From positions 1-64,000 of the forward strand of contig CANMFQ010000022.1 of NCBI GenBank assembly GCA_947497145.1: a stretch of 64,000 bases of DNA. Reading direction: 5' to 3'. This document shows, in pieces, positions 21,974 through 30,957 of this stretch (its first letter is position 1; every line of letters begins with the position of its first letter). Under the pieces are notes generated by a model that worked only from the letters and a program-made list of their open reading frames with translations, was not told the DNA's origin and did no database searches. The stretch is from an uncultured Flavobacteriaceae bacterium. Lineage in GTDB: Bacteria > Bacteroidota > Bacteroidia > Flavobacteriales > Flavobacteriaceae. The position numbers were made by a program, and so were the translations under genes.

Positions 21974-22204
21974 TCAATCAATAATGGTTTAATACTATCT
22001 AAACAGTCGGTTATAAAGCATGTTAAACGCTAAATTTTAACAATGTACGAAAACACGCTCAAAATTTACCTTAAAAAAATGAAGGTCGAAAGTTATAAAA
22101 ATATAATTCCGATTCTTTAACTATTGTTTAACACTAATGTTTGGGGTATCCTATAATTTATATGAATTTTGTCCGTTTTCAAGGTTGAACCCAAAAATTT
22201 GAAA

Positions 22205-23299
22205 ATGAAGTCATTTAGCATAGTATTTACCTTGATTTTTTCGTTTACCCTAGTTATGTCATGCGGAAAAGCAGATGGAGATGTTAATTTTAAATTAGAC
22301 GATACCGATGATAGTTTGGGAAAAGGAACCACCGTTGATGAATGTCTAGGTTTTGGAGAAAGTACGTTAGTACTATCCATACAAGAACAATACACCACTT
22401 TACCCGGTAAAATATCTATCTTATTTAAAGTATCTGATACTGACGGAAATCCGGTTTCTGGTTTAAATGCTGACCAATTTACCATTTATGAGCAAGGTAG
22501 AAATGATGATTGCTTTAATACGATTTCTACTTCGGAATCACAGGCGCGTATTTCACCAAATTCGCAAATATTTGCGACCAATACCCTACTGGTTTTAGAT
22601 TTAAGTAATAGTGTATTGAGCAGTAGCTTGGAAGAGCTTAAAACTGCAAGCACCAGCTTTGTTGATAATGTAATGCCAGCCACTACACAACCTTCGTATA
22701 AAATGGCTATCTATTGGTTTGATGGTGAAAATGAGTTGCACGAATTACACGAACTAACGGCTAGCAAAGACGAACTTAAAGAAGCTATTGCCGGCATCTC
22801 TTCTGATATAAGCAATGACCCTTCAACTGATTTATACGGCGCTGTTATAAAATCGACTGATATTGCTACCCAAGTACTTAATGCGAGTACAGAAGATGAT
22901 AAAATAGGCGCTGCATCGGTAGTTATTTTTACTGATGGTACAGATCAAGCTTCTCGTTTTACCAGAGTTGATGCGCAAAAGAAGGTTGATGAAGCCAATT
23001 CAAATATTACATTTTTCACCATAGGCCTTGGTAGCGAAATAGACACCGAAGTACTTAGTGCCTTAGGAAAAACACACAGTGTTTTTGCAGGTAATAAAGA
23101 GGAATTAGAAACCACCTTTAACGAAATATCTGAGCGTGTTTCGCAGCAAGCAAACAGTTTTTATCTCTTTGAATATTGTAGTCCAAAAAGAGATGGCAGT
23201 GGTGAAAATAATTTAGCTATACGATTAAGAGACGGTAGTCGTGAAGGGGCAGTACAAACCAAATTTAATGCCACTGGCTTTACCGGCGGCTGTGAATAA
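22205..23299 (+). CDS. VWA-domain lipoprotein
   Basis: 364 residues from the ATG at 22205; an upstream in-frame ATG at 22169 would add 12 residues in front of a complete signal peptide, so it is rejected. The lipobox is VMSC. A short acidic linker and an Ig-like strand region (KISILFKVSDTDGNPVSG) precede a von Willebrand A domain (about 130-315) with the MIDAS motif LDLSNS (DxSxS) and the later VIFTDGTD. Such proteins usually mediate metal-dependent protein-protein contacts at the cell surface. It stands alone, divergent from the DUF5916 gene, and is followed by a strong terminator. Confidence 0.8.
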   Translation: MKSFSIVFTLIFSFTLVMSCGKADGDVNFKLDDTDDSLGKGTTVDECLGFGESTLVLSIQEQYTTLPGKISILFKVSDTDGNPVSGLNADQFTIYEQGRNDDCFNTISTSESQARISPNSQIFATNTLLVLDLSNSVLSSSLEELKTASTSFVDNVMPATTQPSYKMAIYWFDGENELHELHELTASKDELKEAIAGISSDISNDPSTDLYGAVIKSTDIATQVLNASTEDDKIGAASVVIFTDGTDQASRFTRVDAQKKVDEANSNITFFTIGLGSEIDTEVLSALGKTHSVFAGNKEELETTFNEISERVSQQANSFYLFEYCSPKRDGSGENNLAIRLRDGSREGAVQTKFNATGFTGGCE

Positions 23300-23330
23300 A
23301 ACAGCTTTTATAGAAAACTTAAGATAGTAA

Positions 23331-23357
23331 AAAACACTCCATTTGGGGTGTTTTTTT
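23331..23357 (+). terminator. Rho-independent terminator after VWA lipoprotein
   Basis: Stem AACACTCC / GGGGTGTT (one G-T wobble) with loop ATTT, followed by seven T residues. It lies 32 bases behind the stop codon. Confidence 0.85.
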
Positions 23358-23549: not shown

Positions 23550-26387
23550 ATGAAACAGATACCATACTTAAAAGGCATATGCTTTCTATTATACTTTTTC
23601 ATTCCTGTAATAATCTTTGCTCAAACTGGCTACGTTTCAGGAACCATTAAAGACAATGACGGAGCACCGCTACCGGGTGTAAATGTCATTATCAAAGGAA
23701 AAAGCATAGGCGTTCAAACCGATTTTGACGGAAACTACCGCATTAAATGTGCTGTTGGAGATGTTTTATTAATAAGTTACATTGGAACGCAAAGTAGAGA
23801 AATCAAGGTCACTACTGCCCTATTTGGTCAAAATCAAATAGCATCTGTTGTTCGTAAAATACCTGTTGCGTTACTTTTAGATAGCACCTATCAAACCGCT
23901 GTTCGAGAAAAGATACCCGCATTTTTACGAGTTCCTCAAATGGAAGAAAGCAATAAAACCTACCAGCGTAAAGGATATTTACAACCAAATCGCATCAAGA
24001 ATATTTCCATAGCAAATAACAAGGTAAAAGTTACATACCTTCCTGCCGATATTTTATATGAAATAGGTTTCCATTACAAAACAGGAGTACAGTTTACACA
24101 AAATAAAAACCTACCTAAAACACAAGCTACGTATGCCCAAGGGATTCCTTTAAATGGTACTAACACACATTTTGGACCTGACGAGGATATCCCTTTTTCA
24201 TACGGGCCCCAATTAAGCAGTCTAGAATTTGATGGTAGTAATTTTCCTTTCGACACCCATGGAAGGCTAGTTAAAAGTGGAAAAGGCAATGGACAAATGG
24301 CCATAGCCTATCCTTCTAATCTCTATAAAAATAGCTTTAAGATCGCACATACCGCTTTCTTCAATATTTCTAATGACACGCATTTTTATGGTTTTGAATA
24401 CACTAATAAGCGCGAAAAAGATGCCTATGCGCAAGAATCAAATTCATTACATTCATTTCGTCTAAATTATAATAATTCTGAAAACTACGATATAATAGAA
24501 TGGCAGGCAGAAATGAAATATATAACTGCCAAAGACAATCAACCTAATATTAATGGTTTCAAAAATAATCTTTTATTGAATGCATTAGTGACCCCTGTGA
24601 GTTTTAGCAACACGCAAGGAAGTTCGTTAGCAAACGGAACACCTAGAAGTTTTAGCCCTACTAAATTCAACAACCCTAATTGGTTATTAAATCACAATAG
24701 AAATAAACTCCTTAACGATTCATTTATTAGTATACTAAGGAATAAATACCACATAAGTGATGAAGTGCGTTTGCAAAGTAAGCTTAGCTATACCCAGCAT
24801 AAAAATGAACAACAGTTTGGGTTTTCTAAAAACACCGTAGGCTATAGCAATGGCTATAGTAGTGACAAATTACAAACTAAAACTACTTTTGACGCCAATA
24901 TTTCAATAAACTGGCATACATACAATCCTGATTTTGACCTGACATCAACTTTTTTCTACACCAACGAAAACTTAAATTACAGCTTTGCAGAAAGCAGTGG
25001 TTTTCTGTCTAATGCATTTCAAAATCCTCAAAAAACTACAACGCGAAAGCATCATTTAAACCGTGATACTTTTCGCTGGTTTAGTAAGTTAGATTTTGAA
25101 TTTATCGATGCTAAAGCAAAAGTATCTTTTGTAAATAATTCATTTGTTTCTAGCCTGCAAAACAGCAAGTGGTTTTTACCTACTCTACAAGCGCAATATC
25201 AATTTGCCAATGCATGGTATTCAAATTTTCTAAAAAAGCTAAACCTGTCTACTACCTTTGGTTATGATGTTAGTTATCTAAACTTGTACTATACAAACCA
25301 AAGTCACTACAGCATACAACTAGCCCCACAAGATAGCTTTGGGTATGTTTCCAATGCTGATTTATTTGTTTCTGATGCTGTTAATTTAGAAGAAAAAAGA
25401 AGCTATGAGCTTAGTCTTGACGTAGGTTTCGAGGTGTTTAACACCTATTGCAATTTAAACACTACTTACTATAATAATGTAACATCAGGCAGTGTATTTC
25501 CTGTCTTTGAAAGCAACCAATTTCAACTTCAAAATATCGCTGATATTCAAAATGAAGGAGTAGAATTTACTCTAGACATAGACACCTATGGGAATCATGA
25601 TTTTAGATATACACCAAGCATTGTATTCTCAACATATAATACCAAGGTGTTACAGTTACATACTTCAGTAAACAGTATTCCTATAGCAGGATTTTCTTCT
25701 GTTTCAAAAAACCTAATAAAGGGAGAAACTGCTGGTGTATTAGTAGGTTCTGCCTATGAAAGAGACGGCAACAATAACATTATTATTGATTCAGATGGAT
25801 TTCCTAAAGTTTCAAGTTCAAAAAAAATAATTGGCGACCCAACGCCTGATTTCAACTTAGGCTTTTCAAATACCTTGAAGTGGAAAAACTTGCAATTAGA
25901 TTTTGTTATTGATTACCAAAAAGGAGGTGACATTTGGAACGGAACGCAACAGGTACTCAACTATTTTGGCACATCAGAACAATCTGCACTTGAACGAGAA
26001 ACTACAGGCTTTGTTTTTAATGGTGTAAATGAACAAGGGGAAATTAACCGCATTCCTGTTGATTTTGCCAATCCTGCAAATGGACTTTCTGGAAATAGAT
26101 TTACTAAATATGGTTTTGATGGTATTGCAGAAGAAGCTATTGTAAATGGCAGTTATGTGAACCTCAAATCCATACATTTTTTTTATGATATAAAAAGCAC
26201 TACCAACACCCCTTTTTTTCGAGAGGTAAAAATAGGGTTGTACGGCAACAATCTTTTGACTTTTTCTAAATATAGCGGCGCATCGCCTTATCAAAATCTA
26301 TTTAGTCAAGCGTCTACTCAAGGTCTTAATTTTTTCAACACCCCCATACTAAGTGAAGTAGGAATGACAATAAATATCAAAATCTAA
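23550..26387 (+). CDS. SusC-like outer-membrane barrel lacking a plug domain
   Basis: 945 residues. Signal peptide (about 8-24, ending FAQ). Residues 27-88 form the carboxypeptidase-regulatory-like domain of SusC-type receptors (VSGTIKDNDGAPLPGVNVII, then TDFDGNYRIK). In an ordinary SusC a TonB box and a ~120-residue plug follow. Here residues 89-150 are a short linker with none of the plug motifs (no VIDG, no LKD, no GxRGxNGV). The barrel begins at about 151 (NNKVKVTYLPADILYEIGFH) and shows the SusC landmarks in order: LPKTQATYAQG, SYGPQL, a FKIAHTAFFNISNDTHFYGF strand, IIGDPTPDFNLGFSNTLKWK, and a late NGSYVNLKSI and NLLTFSKYSGASPYQN. No SusD follows. The next gene, 4 bases away, carries the missing plug. 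Confidence 0.85.
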   Translation: MKQIPYLKGICFLLYFFIPVIIFAQTGYVSGTIKDNDGAPLPGVNVIIKGKSIGVQTDFDGNYRIKCAVGDVLLISYIGTQSREIKVTTALFGQNQIASVVRKIPVALLLDSTYQTAVREKIPAFLRVPQMEESNKTYQRKGYLQPNRIKNISIANNKVKVTYLPADILYEIGFHYKTGVQFTQNKNLPKTQATYAQGIPLNGTNTHFGPDEDIPFSYGPQLSSLEFDGSNFPFDTHGRLVKSGKGNGQMAIAYPSNLYKNSFKIAHTAFFNISNDTHFYGFEYTNKREKDAYAQESNSLHSFRLNYNNSENYDIIEWQAEMKYITAKDNQPNINGFKNNLLLNALVTPVSFSNTQGSSLANGTPRSFSPTKFNNPNWLLNHNRNKLLNDSFISILRNKYHISDEVRLQSKLSYTQHKNEQQFGFSKNTVGYSNGYSSDKLQTKTTFDANISINWHTYNPDFDLTSTFFYTNENLNYSFAESSGFLSNAFQNPQKTTTRKHHLNRDTFRWFSKLDFEFIDAKAKVSFVNNSFVSSLQNSKWFLPTLQAQYQFANAWYSNFLKKLNLSTTFGYDVSYLNLYYTNQSHYSIQLAPQDSFGYVSNADLFVSDAVNLEEKRSYELSLDVGFEVFNTYCNLNTTYYNNVTSGSVFPVFESNQFQLQNIADIQNEGVEFTLDIDTYGNHDFRYTPSIVFSTYNTKVLQLHTSVNSIPIAGFSSVSKNLIKGETAGVLVGSAYERDGNNNIIIDSDGFPKVSSSKKIIGDPTPDFNLGFSNTLKWKNLQLDFVIDYQKGGDIWNGTQQVLNYFGTSEQSALERETTGFVFNGVNEQGEINRIPVDFANPANGLSGNRFTKYGFDGIAEEAIVNGSYVNLKSIHFFYDIKSTTNTPFFREVKIGLYGNNLLTFSKYSGASPYQNLFSQASTQGLNFFNTPILSEVGMTINIKI

Positions 26388-26391
26388 GCAG

Positions 26392-29300
26392 ATGAAAGCA
26401 CTACTATATTACATACAAAAAACAATATTCCTTTTTTTCATAGCAATGATTATGGTGTCGTTTAATGCAGACGAACCCAAAATTGACCTCATAGAAAAAG
26501 TATACACACATACTGATAGACCCTTATATTTTCATGATGACACTATATGGTTTAAAGCCTATGTGGTAAATAGTACAAATACCATTTCTGCCATTAGTGA
26601 AATGCTTTATGTAGATTTAATATCTCCAAAAGGCTCGGTTGTAAAAACTTTAAGACTGCCCGTAACTAATGGGTATGCGTATGGTAACTTTCATATAAAC
26701 AAAAATTGGGTTGGTGGTATTTACACTATAAAATCATACACCAATTGGATGCGAAATTACGGCCAAGACCATCTATTTACAAAGGAAATAACGGTTCAAA
26801 AAATAGTGCAGCCTAACCTTTTAATGCAGTTAAAATTTGAAAAAGAAGCGTACGGAAAAGCATCAACAGTTACTGCCAAATTTGAAGTTAAAGATTTAAA
26901 AAACCAACCCCTTAAAAACACCGAAATTACCATGGCAGTGCTCATTAGTGGTAAAACCTACATTAAGAAAACGCTTGCAACTGATACCAACGGCATACTC
27001 AAACCCACCTTTAAATTACCTGCTAATCTCATAACTACAGACGTTCTTTTAAATATTTTGACACCCTATAAAGGCAGTACAGAATCTATTTCGAGAAGTG
27101 TTCCTGTAGTACTCGATAATTTAGATGTTCAGTTTTTTCCTGAAAGTGGAAAAATTATTGCTGGCACGCCAAACACAATTGCCTTTAAAGCAGTTAATGA
27201 ATTTGGAAAACCAGCTGATATATCAGGTAAATTGATAGACCAACAAGGAAATATAGTTTTAAATTTTAACAGTTATCATGATGGTATGGGAGGTTTTGAG
27301 TTTAACCCCAAAGCTGAAACCATCTATTTTGCTCAAATAACAAAACCGTTTATCTCAGCAAAAAAAATAGCCCTCCCTGAGGTTCATAAAAATGGCGTTC
27401 GATTTTCTGTATCTCAAGAAAATCATTCCCTAAAACTTTCCATTTTTTCAAATACGAAAGAAAAATTACAATTAAAAATCACTAAAAGTTCTGGAGAATT
27501 ACTTACCCGACCTATAGCATTCAATGAAAAAACCATCACCGTAAATACCGAAAAATTCCCACCAGGAATAACCAAAATTTCTATTCTCGGAGAAATGAAA
27601 AATATTCTTTCAGAACGGCTGGTATTTATGAATTATGACAACCAACTTACTATAGACATTCAACTAGACAAAGAAACCTACAACACAAGAGAAAAAGTGT
27701 CGGTCACTATTAAAACCACAGACGTTAATGGAAAACCTATATCATCAAACCTGTCTATTGCTATAGCAGACAATAAACTACTTTCCTTTGCTGATGATAA
27801 GCAAGACCATATTTCATCATACTTATTAATGTCATCAGAATTAAGAGGAAAAATACACAAGCCCCAATTTTATTTTAATCTCAAAGAACCAAAGGCAAAA
27901 AAAGCTTTAGACTACGTTATGCTCACCCATGGTTGGCGGTCTTATATAGCAAAAAACAACGTGACTTTAGTAAATGCTAGTTATCAGCCTGAGCAATTAG
28001 CTATACAACATGGCGAAGTAGTTGATTTAAATGGCCAACCTATATCTGCTCATCTTTTATTGTTTGAAACCCACGGGGATAAAGTGTTGGCTTTTGACAC
28101 CCAACCGAATGGTAAATTCTCATTTAAATTATCAGACCGTAAAAGATATACCCTTGTTGCCTATACCGACGACAACCAAGTGGTATACATTCATAGAAAA
28201 AACAGCAATACTGGTTTTTCTAGTAGTTCTAAAAACAAAACAGGCGTTCCTAATCCAAACACACCAGAAAACTTTTTTGGTGTAAAAAAACCTATGCAAA
28301 AAACGATAAAACAAGAATCAAAAATTAGTTTATCCTTAGATGAAGATGCATCAGCACTTGATGAAGTTGTAATTGTTGGTTATGGCATTACCAAAAAAAG
28401 CAATGCGACAGGTAGTAGTACTATCATAAAAACAAGTGAAATTGCCACCCAAGAAAACATAGCGCATCTCTTGCAAGGTAAAGTATCTGGTGTACAAATC
28501 ACCCATGCGGATGGTATTTCGGGCGCAGCTGCAAAAATCAATATTCGTGGTTATGCTTCAATTTCTGGTAACAATGAACCTTTGTTTGTTATTGATGGTA
28601 TTCCTATGCAGTTCAATAATCAAATAGATATCAATACAGACCAAATAGCATCTGTTTCTGTTTTAAAAGATTTGGCAGCAACTACCCTTTTTGGAACAAG
28701 GGGTAGCAATGGAGTTATTTTAATCAGCACTAAAAATTATCGAAGAAATAGTTACAACAAGAAAAAAATAAACAACAAAAAGCAGAATAACTATACTGCA
28801 TTAGATTTTTATGGCAATGGTGGAAACACATTTGATAGACCCGATAAATTTTACATTCCCATTTATGAAGGGGAAGCCTTAGCCGAAGAACGAACAGATT
28901 TTAGAAGCACTATTTACTGGAATCCGGTTGTACAAACAAATGCCAATGGTGAAGCACAGTTTGAATTTTACAACTCAGATGCTATAACCGCTTTCAAAAT
29001 AACAGCCGAAGGTATTGCACATAACGGCCTTATCGGCAGGCAAGAGAAAGATTATAGTACAAAAAAAATGCTCCATATAGATTTTAAATCTCCAAACTAT
29101 ATGACCGTAGGTGACATTATAAGTCTACCACTAACTATTAGCAACGAGTCTAAAGAAACTTTATTTACACGTTTACAATTAGACTTACCAAATCATATAG
29201 AACTAATAGATGCTATTGATACAAATATCACAATCGCGCCTGAGTCTTCAGTTCTTAAAAACGTAAAAGTAGTTGCACGTAGAAAAGGAGATAATGTAAC

Positions 29301-30957
29301 TATCAATGCTACCGTAACATCAGAAAACTATGCTGATTATCTGCGTAAACCCGTAACTATAATTAGTCCTTATTTTCCAATTGAAACATCTATAGCTGGA
29401 GTTCAAGACCAAACCTTTGAAATTGATATTGACCATGTTGTTCCCAACTCTTTAAAGGCCAATTTCACCTTATACACAAACATTGTAGGTGATGTAATGA
29501 ATGGTATTGCAGCTATGCTAAGGCAGCCTTATGGATGTTTTGAACAAGTTTCATCCACTACTTACCCCAATGTTTTGGTCCTTAAATATTTACAAGAAAC
29601 AGGAAGCAGCAAACCTAGGATAGAAAAAAAAGCTAAAAAATTCATTAAAAACGGTTATCAACGAATGGCTGCTTACGAAACCAAAGAAAATGGTTTTGAG
29701 TGGTACGGAAATACGCCTCCGCACGAAGCATTATCTGCCTACGGCTTGTTACAATTTAAAGAAATGACCGATGTTTATGAGGGTGTTGACCAAAAAATGG
29801 TACAAAGAACTATCAACTGGCTATTAAGTAGACGAGACCATAAAGGTGGTTTTCTTCAAAACAAGGGTAAATACGGTTTCTCAGGTGCTCCCAAAAAGGT
29901 AAACAACGCCTATATCGTATATGCGCTTACCGAAACCAATCCGAAAATTGATATCGAGAAAGAATATCAAACCACCTATTTTGATGCTTTAGATAGTTTG
30001 GACGCCTATAAATTGGCACTAACAGCCCTGTCAAGCAAAAATCTAAATAAACAACTAGAATATGATAATCTGATGTCGTATTTAAAAATGCACATTAAGA
30101 AGCGTGGATTTGAAAAACTGCCTGTAAAAAATACAATTACAAGGTCATATGGGGTTTCAAGAAATTTAGAAACTGTTGCCCTCACCCTTTTAGCGTTGAT
30201 GCGAGATTACAAAACTAATGAGCTCATAATTAACGAAGGGATCAAGTATCTTTTAAAAAATAGAAATCATGGCAGATTTGGCGCTACCCAATCTACAGCA
30301 ATGGTTCTTAAAGTTCTTATAGCATATACCCAATTTACCAAACAGAAAATAATTGAAGAGAATGATAGTGTAGCAATTCATTTAAATGGAAAAATTCTAC
30401 ATAAAAAAATACAATTTAATGATGATGGAAAAATTACCATAGATAGCCTTGAAAACTACCTTAAAAATGGAAAACAAAAAGTAAGTATAAAATTCAACAA
30501 CCCTAAAACAAATTTTGCCTACAATATGAATATCAAGTGGAATAGTAAATTACCACGTTCTTCTGAAAATTGTAAGTTAGATTTAAAAACCACCATACAA
30601 GACAGTTCGCATAAAGTAGGTGATATTGTACGCATGCAGGTAGCTGTTACAAACACTCAAAAGCATGGTTTACCTATGGCTACAGCTATTATTGGCATTC
30701 CCTCAGGCCTAGGGGTACAACCATGGCAATTAAAAGAAATTTTAGAACAAAAAAAAGTTGCCTACTATGAAACTTTTGACAATTATTTGGTGTTATATTG
30801 GCGTGAAATGGGACCCCAAGAACATAAAATAATCAACCTAGATTTAAAAGCCGAAATAGCAGGCGTCTATATCGCACCGCCAAGTAACGTATATTTATAC
30901 TATACCGATGAATATAAAAAATGGATAAAAGGAAATCAGGTAACCATTCTAGATTGA
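26392..30957 (+). CDS. Alpha-2-macroglobulin-like protein with internal SusC-type plug and thioester motif
   Basis: 1521 residues. Domains in order: signal peptide (about 7-26, no lipobox); macroglobulin-like MG domains (about 35-520), opening VYTHTDRPLYFHDDTIWFKA; a carboxypeptidase-regulatory-like domain (about 537-605). Then comes a complete SusC-type plug (656-783) with LDEVVIVGYG, GKVSGVQI, INIRGYASISG, PLFVIDGIPM, ISV-type VLKDLAA and FGTRGSNGVILISTK. An A2M core domain follows (about 830-1040; TDFRSTIYWNPVVQTNANGE), then the thioester motif PYGCFEQ with Cys1049 and Gln1052, a helical thioester domain (to about 1330), and a receptor-binding-like C-domain (about 1390-1515). A2M proteins trap proteases through the thioester; the plug belongs to TonB-dependent transporters. 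The pairing with the plugless barrel 4 bases upstream suggests that the plug acts in trans. Periplasmic location is inferred. Confidence 0.88.
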   Translation: MKALLYYIQKTIFLFFIAMIMVSFNADEPKIDLIEKVYTHTDRPLYFHDDTIWFKAYVVNSTNTISAISEMLYVDLISPKGSVVKTLRLPVTNGYAYGNFHINKNWVGGIYTIKSYTNWMRNYGQDHLFTKEITVQKIVQPNLLMQLKFEKEAYGKASTVTAKFEVKDLKNQPLKNTEITMAVLISGKTYIKKTLATDTNGILKPTFKLPANLITTDVLLNILTPYKGSTESISRSVPVVLDNLDVQFFPESGKIIAGTPNTIAFKAVNEFGKPADISGKLIDQQGNIVLNFNSYHDGMGGFEFNPKAETIYFAQITKPFISAKKIALPEVHKNGVRFSVSQENHSLKLSIFSNTKEKLQLKITKSSGELLTRPIAFNEKTITVNTEKFPPGITKISILGEMKNILSERLVFMNYDNQLTIDIQLDKETYNTREKVSVTIKTTDVNGKPISSNLSIAIADNKLLSFADDKQDHISSYLLMSSELRGKIHKPQFYFNLKEPKAKKALDYVMLTHGWRSYIAKNNVTLVNASYQPEQLAIQHGEVVDLNGQPISAHLLLFETHGDKVLAFDTQPNGKFSFKLSDRKRYTLVAYTDDNQVVYIHRKNSNTGFSSSSKNKTGVPNPNTPENFFGVKKPMQKTIKQESKISLSLDEDASALDEVVIVGYGITKKSNATGSSTIIKTSEIATQENIAHLLQGKVSGVQITHADGISGAAAKINIRGYASISGNNEPLFVIDGIPMQFNNQIDINTDQIASVSVLKDLAATTLFGTRGSNGVILISTKNYRRNSYNKKKINNKKQNNYTALDFYGNGGNTFDRPDKFYIPIYEGEALAEERTDFRSTIYWNPVVQTNANGEAQFEFYNSDAITAFKITAEGIAHNGLIGRQEKDYSTKKMLHIDFKSPNYMTVGDIISLPLTISNESKETLFTRLQLDLPNHIELIDAIDTNITIAPESSVLKNVKVVARRKGDNVTINATVTSENYADYLRKPVTIISPYFPIETSIAGVQDQTFEIDIDHVVPNSLKANFTLYTNIVGDVMNGIAAMLRQPYGCFEQVSSTTYPNVLVLKYLQETGSSKPRIEKKAKKFIKNGYQRMAAYETKENGFEWYGNTPPHEALSAYGLLQFKEMTDVYEGVDQKMVQRTINWLLSRRDHKGGFLQNKGKYGFSGAPKKVNNAYIVYALTETNPKIDIEKEYQTTYFDALDSLDAYKLALTALSSKNLNKQLEYDNLMSYLKMHIKKRGFEKLPVKNTITRSYGVSRNLETVALTLLALMRDYKTNELIINEGIKYLLKNRNHGRFGATQSTAMVLKVLIAYTQFTKQKIIEENDSVAIHLNGKILHKKIQFNDDGKITIDSLENYLKNGKQKVSIKFNNPKTNFAYNMNIKWNSKLPRSSENCKLDLKTTIQDSSHKVGDIVRMQVAVTNTQKHGLPMATAIIGIPSGLGVQPWQLKEILEQKKVAYYETFDNYLVLYWREMGPQEHKIINLDLKAEIAGVYIAPPSNVYLYYTDEYKKWIKGNQVTILD

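Follow-up and report, generated by a model that had tools for sequence, protein, structure and literature searches.

A plugless SusC-type barrel paired with a plug-carrying macroglobulin: a putative natural two-chain TonB-dependent transporter

Introduction

To the best of our knowledge, barrel and plug form a single chain in the known TonB-dependent transporters, and it is still a matter of debate whether transport involves exit of the entire plug from the barrel. In purified complexes SusC plugs come out of the barrel whole, and removal or mutation of the TonB box of Bt1763 (VDEVVV) abolishes the function of this levan transporter (PMC7782687). A plugless FpvAI barrel is restored when a soluble FpvAI plug is supplied in trans (PMC10994204), and FhuA has likewise been split in the laboratory (Braun et al. 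2003, as cited in PMC10994204). In the alpha-2-macroglobulin of E. coli, the thioester is released once the bait segment has been cut (PMC4498604).

Here we describe two adjoining genes in a 64,000-nucleotide stretch of DNA (hereafter the window; positions 1 to 64,000 of contig CANMFQ010000022.1, assembly GCA_947497145.1) from an uncultured Flavobacteriaceae bacterium. One encodes a SusC-type barrel without a plug and the other a macroglobulin, of the attacker-trapping kind, that carries a complete one. Based on sequence comparison alone, and with no structural evidence of docking, we consider it likely that the pair constitutes a natural two-chain TonB-dependent transporter with the plug docked in trans from the periplasm.

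Results

Organization of the gene pair

The barrel gene ends in the stop codon TAA, which is followed by GCAG and then by the ATG of the macroglobulin gene at 26392 on the same strand (Table 1). A gap of 4 bases and a 1521-residue macroglobulin with a complete SusC-type plug had been reported in a first-pass annotation of this DNA, and both were borne out by the gene coordinates, by the Pfam Plug match (residues 669-775) and by the matches to TIGR04056 and PDB 5fq6_B. Barrel, plug and TonB box are thus all present between the two genes. The first protein qualifies as a SusC barrel (TIGR04056 214-980; 5fq6_B 176-984) and contains a CPD/NTE domain (PF13715, 5e-14), and the second has the alpha-2-macroglobulin domain order MG2, A2M, TED by Pfam.

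Table 1. Features of the gene pair and its 5' flank, in window coordinates.
Feature	Location	Strand	Basis or remark
Terminator-like hairpin between VWA gene and pair	23329..23356	+	Weak: 5 sites of this kind against a chance expectation of 5.2
Plugless SusC-type outer-membrane barrel protein, 945 aa	23550..26387	+	Pfam, TIGR04056, plug profiles; 18 plugless orthologues
CarboxypepD_reg-like (NTE) domain of barrel protein, residues 29-90	23634..23819	+	Pfam PF13715 (CarbopepD_reg_2) 5e-14
Linker of barrel protein (~80 residues), residues 92-171, at SusC TonB box/plug position	23823..24062	+	Fast-evolving, length conserved
SusC barrel, residues 172-945 of barrel protein	24063..26384	+	TIGR04056 214-980; PDB 5fq6_B 176-984, E 5e-39
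Plug-carrying alpha-2-macroglobulin-like protein, 1521 aa	26392..30957	+	Plain signal peptide, without lipobox
N-terminal macroglobulin domains including MG2, residues 30-530	26479..27981	+	Pfam MG2 9e-12; own HMM
CPD-like domain 5' of plug, residues 532-605	27985..28206	+	Weak Pfam match 0.002; conserved in 17 orthologues
5' variable linker of macroglobulin, bait-like, residues 606-655	28207..28356	+	Fastest-evolving segment; long low-complexity stretch there in plugless orthologues
Complete SusC plug, macroglobulin residues 654-784	28351..28743	+	Pfam Plug 669-775, 6e-14; PDB 5fq6_B 4-171, E 5e-39; SusC-plug HMM
TonB box LDEVVIVGYG, macroglobulin residues 656-665	28357..28386	+	Conserved in paired macroglobulins; equivalent of Bt1763 VDEVVV (PMC7782687)
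3' variable linker of macroglobulin, residues 785-819	28744..28848	+	Alignment, rate comparison
A2M (MG7-type) domain, macroglobulin residues 840-929	28909..29178	+	Pfam A2M 2e-11
Thioester domain (TED), macroglobulin residues 1026-1312	29467..30327	+	Pfam 7e-26; human A2M 6tav 1e-38
Thioester motif GCFEQ, macroglobulin residues 1048-1052	29533..29547	+	57/57 orthologues
C-terminal bMG10-like domain, macroglobulin residues 1406-1507	30607..30912	+	Pfam 0.003, under curated cut-off

The terminator-like hairpin upstream of the pair suggests, on weak evidence, that the two genes start their own transcript. Further upstream lies a gene for a VWA-domain probable lipoprotein (22169-23299, +), which is conserved in this position only in the Maribacter-like loci and L123. 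This gene and the downstream M14 gene were considered as third parts of the system and ruled out, because such a neighbourhood is common to the Maribacter-like loci and L123 only; the VWA protein of the window therefore probably just adjoins the system without belonging to it.

The missing plug and its complement

No Plug domain was found in the barrel protein by Pfam. A degenerate plug within the linker was considered as well, and was not found when two plug profiles were run with all filters off (--max) against 19 plugless barrel proteins, none of which exceeded 4 bits; a plug found by profile search is what the first-pass annotation had named as refuting its reading. For a second condition named there, another intact SusC acting as the partner, there is no evidence. 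That annotation had the CPD domain pass through a 60-residue linker into a barrel without a plug; the absence of the plug holds by Pfam and profiles, while the linker has to be corrected to ~80 residues. The family alignment of the barrels contains no conserved TonB-box motif in this CPD-to-barrel linker, and the TonB box sits in the macroglobulin instead.

Aligned to a single SusC chain, the two proteins cover complementary parts. Residues 175-944 of the barrel protein match positions 214-980 of the SusC model TIGR04056 (2e-49), and residues 635-784 of the macroglobulin match positions 57-207 (1e-48). The same division was obtained with family alignment profiles, one per protein, compared against the solved structure of the SusC BT_2264, PDB 5FQ6 chain B: the macroglobulin profile covers residues 4-171 (E 4.8e-39) and the barrel profile, after a gap of four residues, covers residues 176-984 (E 5.3e-39).

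In the barrel tree the plugless barrels fall into a single clade, which is nested next to SusCs that bear a plug. All of its sisters carry the plug in cis, and the barrel has therefore lost a cis plug. By Pfam, no SusD was present among eight neighbours of pairs, whereas two of the closest intact SusCs do have one.

Conservation of the pair

The arrangement recurs in 19 loci from 14 genera and two families, always with the barrel first and the macroglobulin on the same strand 2-5 bp behind, apart from one apparent 20-bp overlap that depends on the start codon chosen. All but one of these loci are complete (18/19), L133 being cut by contig ends. Because the same architecture is found in 19 loci, an assembly or frameshift artefact is ruled out. 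Co-occurrence of a plugless barrel with a neighbouring MG/A2M-plug gene, which the first-pass annotation had proposed as a check, was confirmed: both genes are present in 15 of 396 genomes of the family and neither occurs alone in any (Fisher 2e-27, not corrected for relatedness). A class-wide search added one more pair, in another family (L186), and the two genes also adjoin in three more genomes from the genus of the window, one of them Maribacter algarum.

Except among the Maribacter-like loci and L123, the flanking genes of the pairs are unrelated, and the two genes therefore behave as one unit. Identity among the loci falls to 27% for the barrel and 36% for the macroglobulin with motif and order kept. 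Both trees suggest one or very few origins of the pair, followed by long joint inheritance with patchy loss or transfer.

Two of the pair loci hold additional related sequences. Just upstream of the pair in L124 (5623-6093, +) is a 156-aa secreted protein of two half-plug repeats, and in L130 (18032-18361, +; G152:C14) the truncated C-terminus of a second macroglobulin, with an in-frame stop, lies near an intact pair.

Evolutionary distances of plug and barrel correlate with r 0.36, below the barrel's correlation with other segments, perhaps owing to the short plug alignment. Replacement of the plug by recombination with resident SusC plugs was considered but not supported, since one clade of paired plugs was not rejected (AU p 0.28). 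Grouping four genus-level plugs together was likewise not rejected (p 0.19).

Macroglobulin orthologues and the bait position

Orthologues of the macroglobulin were found in ~60 of 395 genomes of the class, with 31-40% identity over the A2M and TED domains. We read 40 of these class-wide loci, 38 of which had neither plug nor barrel anywhere in the locus; the remaining two were the L186 pair and L207, which has a plug and no barrel. Altogether, the 57 macroglobulin orthologues comprise 18 with a plug and an adjacent plugless barrel, one with a plug alone and 38 with neither. The thioester motif GCFEQ, which conforms to CXEQ, is invariant in all 57.

In the plugless orthologues, the MG domains are separated from the A2M domain by a CPD-like domain and ~100-150 low-complexity residues, a composition that, judged from the residues only, would be expected of a bait region. 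The paired macroglobulins have the TonB box, which is kept among them, and the SusC plug at this bait-like position, set between the linkers that evolve fastest in the protein. An HMM built only from the plugs of intact SusCs scored these at 170-225 bits, paired plugs at 79-152 bits and the plugs of orphan MG-plug proteins at 25-47 bits. The macroglobulin of L207 (1-4403, -; G786:C843) carries a SusC-like plug that scores like the paired ones and has no barrel upstream. No plugless barrel was found in its genome, which is 91% complete and fragmented, and the downstream side of the gene is off the contig.

Inserts of other kinds were seen at the bait position of plugless macroglobulins, with CPDs, a TonB box-like motif and a TonB_C domain in L173 and L193 and a bare TonB box (LDEVVIVG) in L176. 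Common in Flavobacteriaceae are MG-domain proteins of 780-1260 aa (L064-L081; e.g. L064 7733-11428 and 11817-15596, L071 6446-8905), several of which have a plug-like module, its second half best kept, and no adjoining barrel. A stand-alone CPD and plug protein of 229 aa (L075 4928-5617, +; C17 of its own genome) lies beside a glucose-6-phosphate isomerase-like gene, again with no barrel.

Discussion

A proposed split transporter

Docking of the macroglobulin plug in the barrel in trans, as inferred in the first-pass annotation, is supported by the tiling of the two proteins over one SusC chain, their co-occurrence and adjacency, the absence of the plug from orthologues without the barrel, the SusC-like plug scores and the retained TonB box; physical docking itself is inferred. 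AlphaFold models of the single chains were of low confidence (pLDDT 28.7 for the barrel and 36.7 for a CPD-plug-A2M fragment), with only three sequences available for each. In the proposed arrangement, the first protein would supply the SusC barrel and a periplasmic CPD domain, and the second would be a periplasmic thioester macroglobulin supplying TonB box and plug. The plug would seat in the barrel from the periplasmic side, and the chain on which TonB acts would be that of the macroglobulin. In TonB-dependent transporters the plug has its two ends on the periplasmic side, so that the body of the macroglobulin can hang below the pore and the plug can enter without threading. Since the signal peptide of the macroglobulin is a plain one without a lipobox, the barrel may also be its anchor. 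The two genes, which are found in some marine bacteria and stay together in 14 genera, very probably encode one gated and possibly booby-trapped door, again with the docking inferred. That gating, TonB energy and protein trapping are joined in one machine is a further inference, about function.

Alternative explanations

The main functional rival accepts docking in trans and holds that the complex is an importer, with the macroglobulin as periplasmic receiver or anchor for large peptides or proteins and without attack by the thioester. This is possible, if short of probable. SusC-type barrels are established importers of peptides and glycans (PMC7782687), and in the sister barrel L220 a large VIT-VWA module is attached in cis on that side, so that a big periplasmic partner may be general in the clade; invariance of GCFEQ in 57/57 orthologues, however, argues for a working thioester, and a SusD lid was not found beside the pairs examined.

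We regard it as unlikely that the macroglobulin plug is a free-standing TonB- or protein-binding module, with the barrel either an open porin or closed by its own 80-residue linker. Orphan MG-plug proteins without a neighbouring barrel are widespread in Flavobacteriaceae, hence a plug can be of use where there is no barrel, and the L207 orthologue has a plug and no barrel. The orphan plugs are degenerate, however (25-47 bits against 79-152), and within this macroglobulin lineage the plug accompanies a plugless barrel in 18 of 19 cases. As for the barrel, a SusC barrel left empty would form a very wide pore, and the linker, although conserved in length at ~80 residues, evolves fast in sequence, unlike a specific plug. 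Decay of the genes, or an accidental shuffling of domains that serves no function, can be dismissed almost outright: the barrel of the L135 pair is shortened to 806 aa, but both genes are intact, with motif and order conserved, in 19 loci down to 27% and 36% identity.

A possible trap and its wider setting

If the plug does dock in trans, its disturbance, whether by the pull of TonB or by proteolysis of the plug or linkers, could open the pore and arm the thioester, and a protein entering the periplasm at the opened gate would then be bound covalently. We consider this mode of action the most likely one, given that the plug stands where the bait segment would be. How the thioester trap is armed and what its cargo might be are speculative, and the trap function rests on homology only. 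We offer only tentatively, and would not bet on, the broader picture of a booby-trapped door, in which a TonB-powered gate in the outer membrane is stopped by the bait segment of a thioester protein resembling complement, opening or breaking this gate arms the covalent capture of anything that comes in, and complement-like (A2M) and ITI-heavy-chain-like (VIT-VWA) proteins have been wired to TonB several times.

Macroglobulin-like and ITI-like proteins do seem to have been linked to parts of the TonB system more than once. The cases comprise a bare TonB box (L176), a TonB_C domain (L173, L193, L236), the plug in trans described here, and a plug in cis (L220, L240). In L220 (5408-10279, -), which is in the same genome as the L186 pair, a single-chain SusC contains CPD, VIT-VWA (ITI heavy-chain-like), TonB box, plug and barrel; its barrel is the sister of the plugless barrels and its VIT-VWA module lies between CPD and plug. 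In L240 (4781-9475, -) a single chain combines VIT-VWA, a plug and a C-terminal region whose barrel matches are weak; L236 (7235-9652) combines VIT-VWA with TonB_C. A further VIT-VWA protein (L241 5972-9838, -) has a long C-terminal region of barrel-like appearance.

Comparison with known systems

No published description of the pair was found in the open-licence literature, and a description elsewhere is not excluded; the portions available to us of a paper on the Bacteroidota BAM (PMC12611786) yielded no plugless SusC subunit. If our reading is true, this would, to judge from the searchable literature, be the first instance in which a thioester macroglobulin is coupled to an outer-membrane gate and to TonB energy, and bacterial macroglobulins would gain a place and a possible trigger. 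A natural transporter with its plug on another protein would also make whole-plug movement directly testable.

The pair shares barrel, plug, TonB box and CPD/NTE domain with the SusC/RagA transporters (BT_2264, Bt1763, RagA; PDB 5FQ6, 5T3R, 6SLI), but it has plug and TonB box on a second polypeptide, of which a macroglobulin also forms part, and no SusD gene lies beside it. The single-chain L220 protein of G779 (1623 aa) comes near in that its barrel is a sister and a large periplasmic module adjoins TonB box and plug; it differs in having its own plug in one chain and an ITI-heavy-chain-like VIT-VWA in place of the macroglobulin. With the bacterial alpha-2-macroglobulins (E. coli ECAM, Salmonella SaA2M) the second protein shares MG2, A2M, TED, the CXEQ motif (here CFEQ) and the expected periplasmic site, whereas it has CPD, TonB box and SusC plug at the bait position and lacks a lipobox; in place of their inner-membrane anchor, an outer-membrane barrel is likely to hold it. 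The orphan MG-plug proteins of Flavobacteriaceae (e.g. L064, L066, L071) resemble it in that a plug-like module and an A2M strand come after MG domains, and differ in the lack of a TED match, a degenerate plug and no adjoining partner barrel. Comparable too is the laboratory-split FpvAI, in which a plug in trans restores a plugless barrel as proposed for the pair (PMC10994204); the FpvAI and FhuA splits were engineered, whereas the split put forward here would be natural and conserved, with the plug embedded in a large second protein.
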